From Ferruginibacter sp. (GTDB lineage Bacteria; Bacteroidota; Bacteroidia; Chitinophagales; Chitinophagaceae), in assembly GCA_016786725.1 (NCBI GenBank), contig JAEUVU010000001.1, forward strand, positions 1-64,000: a stretch of 64,000 nucleotides of DNA. The letters run 5' to 3'. A program made the position numbers and the translations under genes. Position 1 is the first letter of the stretch. Every line of letters starts with the position of its first letter. Positions 23,464 through 23,954 of the stretch are shown in pieces. The notes under the pieces were generated by a model. It worked only from the letters and a program-made list of their open reading frames with translations. It was not told the origin of the DNA and did not search any database.

Positions 23464-23473
23464 CTTTTGTTTG

Positions 23474-23547
23474 TGATCTGGATTGGATTCGAACCAATGA
23501 CCCTCAGCTTAGAAGGCTGATGCTCTATCCAGCTGAGCTACCAGACC
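23474..23547 (-). tRNA. tRNA-Arg, anticodon UCU
   Basis: 74 bases. The acceptor stem GGTCTGG pairs with CCAGATC (one G-U), with discriminator A; CCA is not encoded. The D arm is AGCTCAGCTGGATAGAGC. The anticodon stem TCAGC / GCTGA encloses the loop CTTCTAA with anticodon TCT, which reads AGA. The T arm contains GGTTCGAATCC. All stems are intact. A -7 box and a terminator frame it, so it is a stand-alone tRNA gene. Confidence 0.95.
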
Positions 23548-23561
23548 ATTTTTTGCAGCCG

Positions 23562-23569
23562 CAAAGCTA
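23562..23569 (-). promoter_or_regulatory. -7 promoter box for tRNA-Arg
   Basis: TAGCTTTG on the minus strand matches TAnnTTTG and ends 15 bases before the mature tRNA 5' end. Confidence 0.5.
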
Positions 23570-23622
23570 AGAAAATTTTACTTTGCATTAGAACTTAATT
23601 GAAACAGAGATCAATATTTTTC

Positions 23623-23874
23623 ATGCAGGCATGCCTATACATATTATTCAGCCAGGCTCTTAACAAATATTATATAGGCTCTACAACAGACATAGAAAGG
23701 CGTTTGGCTGAACATAACAGAGGGAAGGAAAAATTTACCAGAACTGGAATTCCTTGGTTATTGGTTTATTCTGAAATATTTGAGGAATTAAATCAAGCAA
23801 GACAAAGAGAATTTTATATTAAAAGAATGAAAAGCAAAATATTTATTGAGAAACTGATAACCTCAGCCGGATAG
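23623..23874 (+). CDS. GIY-YIG domain nuclease-like protein, ending inside a tRNA-like sequence
   Basis: 84 residues from ATG 23623 ('MQACLYILFSQALNKYYIGSTTDIERRLAEHN'). The single-domain GIY-YIG fold is shown by 'LYILFS' and 'KYYIGSTTD', the catalytic Arg in 'IERRLAEH', and a Glu in 'ARQREFYIKRMKSK' as the metal ligand. Small proteins of this type (UPF0213/YhbQ-like) are thought to cut DNA. The stop codon TAG is part of the D-loop of the degenerate tRNA copy at 23860-23927, so the last residues 'SAG' come from tRNA sequence. A TTG start 24 bases upstream adds nothing family-like. A near -7 box, TACTTTG, lies at 23579-23585. Confidence 0.85.
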   Translation: MQACLYILFSQALNKYYIGSTTDIERRLAEHNRGKEKFTRTGIPWLLVYSEIFEELNQARQREFYIKRMKSKIFIEKLITSAG

Positions 23875-23927
23875 TGCATCCCGATTTATAATCGGGAGGG
23901 TCATTGGTTCGAATCCAATCCAGATCA
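23860..23927 (+). pseudogene. Degenerate tRNA copy (anticodon-like UAU), 3' half intact
   Basis: From CTCAGC onward this strand aligns with tRNA-Arg except in the anticodon arm. The anticodon stem CCCGA / TCGGG is perfect and encloses the loop TTTATAA (would-be anticodon TAT). The T arm and the 3' acceptor strand are identical to tRNA-Arg. The D stem (CCTC against GTGC) has two mismatches, and no 5' acceptor strand pairs with CCAGATC, so a normal tRNA cannot form. The 5' portion overlaps the end of the GIY-YIG gene. Confidence 0.82.
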
Positions 23928-23928
23928 C

Positions 23929-23954
23929 AAAAAAGCCTTTAGGGGCTTTTTTTT
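23929..23954 (+). terminator. Terminator after the GIY-YIG/tRNA-like unit
   Basis: AAAAGCC / GGGCTTTT hairpin followed by nine T, directly after the tRNA-like sequence. Confidence 0.8.

Follow-up and report, generated by a model that had tools for sequence, protein, structure and literature searches.

Small GIY-YIG nuclease genes of the Bacteroidota recurrently sit beside tRNA genes as part of a unit of approximately 370 bp, in which a gene for an 83-aa, single-domain protein runs directly into a duplicate of the neighbouring tRNA. This unit is probably a minimal homing-like selfish element of tRNA genes, for which the duplicated tRNA would provide the homology arms while the host tRNA is left intact. 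It is present or absent as a discrete insertion at orthologous sites, and its tRNA copy varies together with the tRNA beside which it lies and has commonly acquired a GC-rich hairpin.

The locus in Ferruginibacter sp.

The window, by which we mean the whole 64,000-nucleotide stretch that was analysed, comprises positions 1–64,000 of the forward strand of contig JAEUVU010000001.1 from Ferruginibacter sp. (GCA_016786725.1), a member of the Chitinophagaceae within the Bacteroidota; the features of the locus are collected in Table 1. The intact tRNA-Arg(UCU) gene and the nuclease gene are arranged head-to-head in the window, whereas other loci have the tRNA upstream, in the same orientation as the nuclease gene. 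The original prediction, made from this sequence alone, held that the tRNA-Arg(UCU) on the minus strand and a degenerate tRNA copy on the plus strand share 36 identical bases as inverted repeats, and this proved correct: the arms extend over 39 nt with 97% complementarity, 36 bases being identical (23470–23505 and 23896–23931), which excludes chance. It was also right in placing the last codons and the stop codon of the nuclease gene (TAG, 23872–23874) in the D-arm of the copy, and in describing the anticodon arm, with its would-be UAU, as perfectly paired. The copy has had its 5' acceptor strand replaced by coding sequence, keeps part of the D-arm, and is identical to the local tRNA-Arg in the V and T arms and the 3' acceptor; its anticodon arm has been swapped for a hairpin formed by the palindrome TCCCGA-TTTATAA-TCGGGA (23879–23897), and the TCCCGA...TCGGGA motif is also dispersed through the genomes of relatives. 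ARAGORN labels this copy 'tRNA-Ile(TAT)'.

Table 1. Features of the tRNA-Arg/nuclease locus and its flanks in the window.
Feature	Position	Strand	Basis or remark
ung (uracil-DNA glycosylase), flank	22729..23412	-	Served to locate orthologous empty and filled sites
Inverted repeat partner arm, within and just beyond the 3' end of the intact tRNA-Arg	23467..23505	-	Repeat comparison
Intact tRNA-Arg(UCU) gene	23473..23547	-	ARAGORN; Rfam tRNA 70.6 bits
tRNA-Arg upstream region, between tRNA and nuclease gene; contains AGCTTTGC, a putative tRNA-Arg promoter	23548..23600	-	Sequence comparison; common to L038
Small GIY-YIG nuclease gene, 83 aa (ATG 23623, TAG 23872-23874)	23623..23874	+	PF01541 E=2e-15
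Degenerate tRNA-Arg copy	23851..23928	+	ARAGORN; Rfam 23.9 bits, E=0.004, under the gathering score of 29
Palindrome TCCCGA-TTTATAA-TCGGGA, in anticodon-arm position	23879..23897	+	Perfectly paired
Inverted repeat 3' arm: tRNA V/T arm and 3' acceptor	23896..23934	+	Repeat comparison
Terminator-like hairpin and T run, immediately 3' of the tRNA copy	23932..23955	+	Read from sequence; same layout at filled loci
MATE-family efflux gene, opposite flank	24113..25519	+	Conserved in G010, G014, G015, G018, G020

Nuclease genes adjoin tRNA genes across the phylum

When 99 related genomes were searched with the protein, 53 of them yielded a total of 108 matches at E ≤ 1e-8; the locus set of these relatives comprised 111 loci, 83 of them with enough flanking sequence for the neighbour test. 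At 68 of the 83, ARAGORN found a tRNA on the same strand no more than 120 bp away, mostly 5–75 bp upstream; the bin 0–100 bp upstream held 63 tRNA calls, and the other 100-bp upstream bins at most seven each. The usual layout is a direct repeat, consisting of an intact tRNA, the nuclease gene and a decayed copy of the same tRNA, and the neighbouring tRNAs include the Arg, Lys, Pro, Met, Ser, Glu, Val, Leu, Ala, Asp, Asn and Phe isotypes. A further 80 named loci mostly follow this order too; they come from the Bacteroidota groups Flavobacteriia, Cytophagia, Sphingobacteriia and Chitinophagia, and from a small number of other phyla. This set is biased to the tRNA-Ala(GGC) lineage, because the query belonged to that lineage, and was scanned with a narrower alignment rather than the 22-sequence one. 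The order is reversed at some loci (L013, L015 and L034), with a broken tRNA upstream and the intact one downstream. Tandem nuclease–tRNA units also occur, and matches often lie less than about 300 bp from contig ends (L074, L098, L100, L133, L136, L139, L147, L151 and others); breaks of short-read assemblies at repeated or tandem units would be expected to have this effect.

An opposite-strand tRNA neighbour within 100 bp was found in the window alone, among approximately 190 loci. The original prediction had proposed that the inverted repeats might recombine and flip the segment; because the window is the only inverted case, the other loci having direct repeats or no opposite-strand neighbour, flipping is not the general mechanism, and inverted tRNA ends were rejected as the general architecture. 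A unit bounded by inverted tRNA sequences and flipped by recombination would account for the 39-nt repeats of the window and for the orientation of tRNA-Arg relative to ung, which varies within the genus (L038, L041, L046, L052, L055 and L063), but against the other loci we regard it as most improbable; flipping at the window locus alone is possible.

Among viral contigs, the A2 profile search found no relatives of the nuclease, and none was found on plasmids; Rhizobium phages gave weak partial matches only. A phage or plasmid home for the unit was rejected on these searches. In the published literature that was open to search, chiefly open-access papers, GIY-YIG genes accompanied by tRNA duplicates or by REP palindromes are not described for Bacteroidota.

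The nuclease and its lineages

The protein belongs to the GIY-YIG superfamily by its PF01541 match (E = 2e-15), its catalytic residues and its fold, and the catalytic Y17, R27 and E63, together with G19, are invariant among 40 aligned sequences. The AlphaFold model is one compact domain (pLDDT 93), with UPF0213 (1zg2) and SLX1 as its nearest folds, followed by I-TevI, and the closest solved sequences and folds (1zg2, 1ywl, 7cq2 and 6seh) are of the UPF0213/SLX1 type. The eukaryotic SLX1 serves in DNA repair, where it works on branched DNA together with SLX4. A match to TIGR01453 is sub-threshold, at 25.4 against 56 bits. Both the PF01541 domain and the model correspond to the catalytic fold only, with no DNA-recognition domain and no separate DNA-binding or NUMOD region in the 83 residues.

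When isoacceptor labels were placed on a tree of 101 nucleases, 32 changes were required, compared with a mean of 56.3 for shuffled labels, and none of 200 shufflings gave so low a number; judged by their sequences, the nuclease lineages are isoacceptor-specific. The window nuclease joins two other Arg(UCU) elements, beside Lys(UUU) elements.

The second tRNA copy

The sequence after the nuclease gene was compared, at 121 loci where the upstream tRNA is intact, with the last 36 nt of that tRNA, using strict local scores and 100 shuffles; a gapped, global profile of copy–tRNA identity was set aside, because its shuffled control was inflated. The downstream copy scored above all 100 shuffles at 103 of the 121 loci, and above the tail of every other isotype at 95. 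Where the copy was clear (70 loci), the nuclease stop codon, usually TAG, fell within it in 66 cases, and the distance from the end of the conserved domain to the 3' end of the copy had a median of 71 nt, one tRNA length; the gene is thus joined directly to a complete tRNA copy, from which it takes its stop codon. These results, from the survey proposed at the outset, bear out, for the phylum, the original suggestion that such small GIY-YIG genes end in tRNA sequence.

The copy resembled the local tRNA more closely than it did the same-isoacceptor tRNAs of other genomes in 2217 of 2552 comparisons, with 271 ties and 64 worse; the copy therefore tracks its local tRNA, a likeness that points to local duplication and/or ongoing gene conversion. 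The earlier idea of a mobile unit associated with the 3' end of tRNA genes stands in so far as nuclease gene and copy form a discrete unit, present or absent at orthologous sites, but not in the sense of a fixed tRNA 3' end carried as cargo, since the copy matches the local tRNA.

The copy overlaps the end of the reading frame, still has its T-arm and acceptor, and precedes a terminator. This would suit a role at the RNA level, in which the mRNA is processed or stabilised through its tRNA-like 3' end (an RNase P/Z substrate), or the nuclease is regulated by that end, the nuclease itself acting in tRNA metabolism. We consider such a role very unlikely: the copies have lost the 5' acceptor strand and gained hairpins at variable positions, the isotype of the copy follows the neighbour rather than a fixed structure, the relatives of the protein are DNA nucleases, and sites without the nuclease gene are viable.

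Solo copies, without a nuclease gene and sometimes in tandem, were found by means of a hairpin plus T-loop pattern, which also caught plain palindromes without tRNA context. Nuclease-free copies at unrelated places had been named in advance as a result that would speak against the mobile unit; solo copies do exist, but the clear tRNA-type ones mostly adjoin an intact tRNA of the same isotype. Two tandem arrays of broken, nuclease-free copies with hairpins were seen, one of tRNA-Lys (L084, 1346–1851, 137 bp × 3.7) and one of tRNA-Ala (L172, 7–426, 111 bp × 3.8). Such elements probably cause false tRNA annotations across the Bacteroidota.

Filled and empty sites

The empty sites that the original prediction suggested looking for in related genomes were found both at tRNA-Met/era and at tRNA-Arg/ung. 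At tRNA-Met/era, the unit is present in five genomes, including that of the window, and absent in at least 12 others, with clean empty sites seen among the latter. The net insert of 365–374 bp holds the nuclease gene and the tRNA copy only; it sits after the terminator of the tRNA, and the copy then has a different terminator. At tRNA-Arg/ung, the site is unoccupied in G010 (ung identity 93%), and G014 and G015 carry the unit in the canonical order; in the window, the nuclease gene and copy are inverted and placed at the opposite side of the tRNA. Both loci thus show the present/absent polymorphism at a fixed site that is characteristic of free-standing homing genes of the Seg type, and the tRNA outside the element is intact at all filled sites examined. 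At the six loci listed above for its varying orientation, tRNA-Arg(UCU) lies flipped upstream of ung without a nuclease gene, as compared with L037, L047 and L060.

Taken alone, the pattern of presence and absence would fit gain as well as repeated loss. On the era tree three changes are needed, at least two of them forced by well-supported branches. No clear case of horizontal transfer emerged, the GIY proteins diverging faster than ung. It might be supposed that there is no mobility at all, and that an old, tRNA-linked chromosomal GIY-YIG gene is inherited vertically and often lost, while the tRNA duplicates by ordinary slippage and its duplicates decay. The nuclease tree partly fits vertical descent, the filled tRNA-Met/era sites of the five genomes have common flanks, and gene-free solo duplicates exist, but we think this account quite unlikely: the many isoacceptors have each their own nuclease lineage, presence or absence at orthologous sites is a clean difference of 365–374 bp, the tRNA-Met nuclease lineage is also found away from era (L130, L135 and L137), and slippage alone does not predict that a duplicated tRNA should flank the gene nearly always.

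Hairpins and dispersed palindromes

Of the 121 copies, 84 have gained a GC-rich hairpin of 6 bp or more, which replaces the anticodon arm or lies within the T or D loop. Its stems are mostly TCCCGA, TCCCGC, CCCCGAA or TCCGCC, with TCCCGA...TCGGGA the usual form, and the pattern CCCG(A/C)...(T/G)CGGG occurs in 71 of the 121 copies compared with one intact tRNA. The anticodon arm, whose conservation was a further check proposed at the outset, is not conserved as an anticodon; a recurrent palindrome is found instead, with the original anticodon partly retained in the loop. The loop retains the anticodon of the neighbouring tRNA in 14 of 56 cases, compared with 5.5 by shuffling, and a pure palindrome without memory of the tRNA was rejected on these numbers. 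At L077 (approximately 1453–1551), a seemingly normal tRNA-Ser(UGA) call has a TCCCGA...TCGGGA hairpin in the region of the variable arm.

In the 99 relatives, TCCCGA...TCGGGA palindromes number 972, against 74 for the reversed control (approximately 13-fold), and range from 0 to 55 per genome. Their number follows that of GIY genes (rho 0.54, p 6e-9; control 0.03), in a comparison that ignores kinship and counts the palindromes inside copies, and the correlation also holds inside the genus and among genomes lacking Y1 transposases. The Y1 (RAYT-type) transposase adds little beyond GIY number to explaining the number of palindromes, and is a weak candidate for their driver. Two genes of another GIY-YIG subfamily in the genome of the window (L005 and L006, on contigs C9 and C14; open frames of 112–113 aa, with no tRNA nearby) have palindromes on both flanks, resembling GATCCCTC...CGGGATGACA at L005 and GATTTCTCCTATCGTCGAAATGACA at L006, which suggests a wider link of GIY-YIG genes with palindromic repeats.

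A possible interpretation is that the nuclease mobilises the dispersed palindromes, as a GIY-YIG counterpart of the RAYT/REP system, and that the broken tRNA copies are safe landing pads or structural half-sites that it recognises, the link with tRNA being secondary. The excess of palindromes over the control, their correlation with GIY number irrespective of Y1, their location exactly in the anticodon, T or D loops of the copies and the different palindromes flanking the other subfamily all agree with this. We nevertheless judge it unlikely, because most palindromes lie outside tRNA copies (78 hairpin plus T-loop matches against 972 palindromes), some copies have no palindrome, the correlation is subject to the effects of phylogeny and of the copies themselves noted above, and the gene's conserved association is with the tRNA, not with the palindrome.

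A proposed homing-like mechanism

In the homing-like mechanism that we favour, the target of the SLX1/UPF0213-like nuclease would be a tRNA gene that matches in isoacceptor and lacks the element. The break would probably fall around the D-arm and anticodon, the part in which the copies have diverged, and its repair by homologous recombination, with the occupied allele as template and the tRNA sequence as homology, would bring in the nuclease gene and the second copy. The duplicated tRNA would then do three jobs: one functional tRNA stays in place, the nuclease gains its stop codon and 3' end, and a homology arm is provided on either side of the element. Since the protein carries no recognition domain, isoacceptor specificity may come largely from the homology used in repair. 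Gene conversion would hold the 3' halves of the tRNA and the copy identical, while the 5' half and anticodon arm of the copy decay and gain a TCCCGA-type palindrome, and recombination between the repeats would amplify units in tandem, leave solo copies or remove units; in the window, the unit would have been rearranged so that the tRNA faces the opposite way. Several points count against the mechanism: the intact upstream tRNA of an occupied genome should remain cleavable, the window itself departs from the canonical order, presence and absence by themselves would also fit repeated loss, and the searches of viral contigs and plasmids found no copies.

A more far-reaching proposal, which we offer tentatively and as rather unlikely in its entirety, is that these elements of approximately 370 bp are an undescribed, phylum-wide class of autonomous selfish elements, in which a bare, structure-specific GIY-YIG nuclease breaks tRNA-shaped (cruciform) DNA and the duplicated tRNA gives homology arms, isoacceptor specificity and rescue of the gene, and that this nuclease also disperses the TCCCGA...TCGGGA palindromes in Bacteroidota, so that REP-like repeats would have a second enzymatic origin in addition to RAYTs. 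The tRNA–nuclease unit explains why many small GIY-YIG genes of Bacteroidota end in tRNA sequence, and accounts for the tRNA pseudocopies with odd anticodon arms that are miscalled as tRNAs; the nuclease is in addition a candidate, open to testing, for the enzyme behind the dispersed palindromic repeats in this phylum. If mobility is confirmed, the units would be among the smallest autonomous mobile elements.

Comparison with known systems

The GIY-YIG homing endonucleases of group I introns belong to the same superfamily and share a tRNA target, but their genes lie in an intron that interrupts the tRNA, whereas the Bacteroidota unit has no intron and its upstream tRNA is uninterrupted and intact; an origin from a group I intron was rejected on this ground. 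Islands, ICEs and prophages at tRNA sites resemble the unit in inserting at the 3' side of the tRNA, in keeping its function and in the direct repeat of the tRNA 3' end that flanks the insert, found here at 103 of 121 loci. In contrast to these, the 365–374 bp insert has no integrase or other recombinase gene and holds only that of the nuclease, and its repeat is a nearly whole tRNA, decayed and bearing a hairpin.

With the RAYT/REP (REPIN) systems, the unit shares a small enzyme gene and dispersed palindromes whose number tracks that of the gene. The enzyme is a GIY-YIG nuclease and not a Y1 (HUH) transposase, Y1 genes elsewhere in the genomes do not explain the palindrome number, the gene is tied to tRNA duplicates and its causal role is putative. 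The closest solved sequences and folds, as described above, are those of UPF0213/SLX1-type nucleases, for which we know of no tRNA-linked mobility.

The closest precedent, by analogy, is SegB of phages T4 and T6, a free-standing GIY-YIG homing endonuclease (PMC13096335, which cites Brok-Volchanskaya 2008). According to the parts of that paper drawn on here, SegB adjoins phage tRNA genes of many isotypes and is implicated in breaks in tRNA-containing DNA, and it amplifies segB–tRNA segments, for which the authors propose recombination via microhomology between the segB 3' and tRNA 5' sequences (PMC13096335). In both systems, then, a GIY-YIG gene lies beside tRNA genes of many isotypes. SegB is phage-borne, and those parts of the paper describe no isoacceptor-specific lineages for it, whereas the Bacteroidota unit is chromosomal, has isoacceptor-specific lineages, and combines a bare catalytic domain of 83 aa with a fixed direct duplication of the tRNA and a palindrome-bearing copy; we do not class it as a Seg-type enzyme, because the extra DNA-binding region is absent, nor as an integrase element or a RAYT. 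Should its mobility be confirmed, the unit would be a chromosomal counterpart of SegB, parasitising essential tRNA genes without breaking them.
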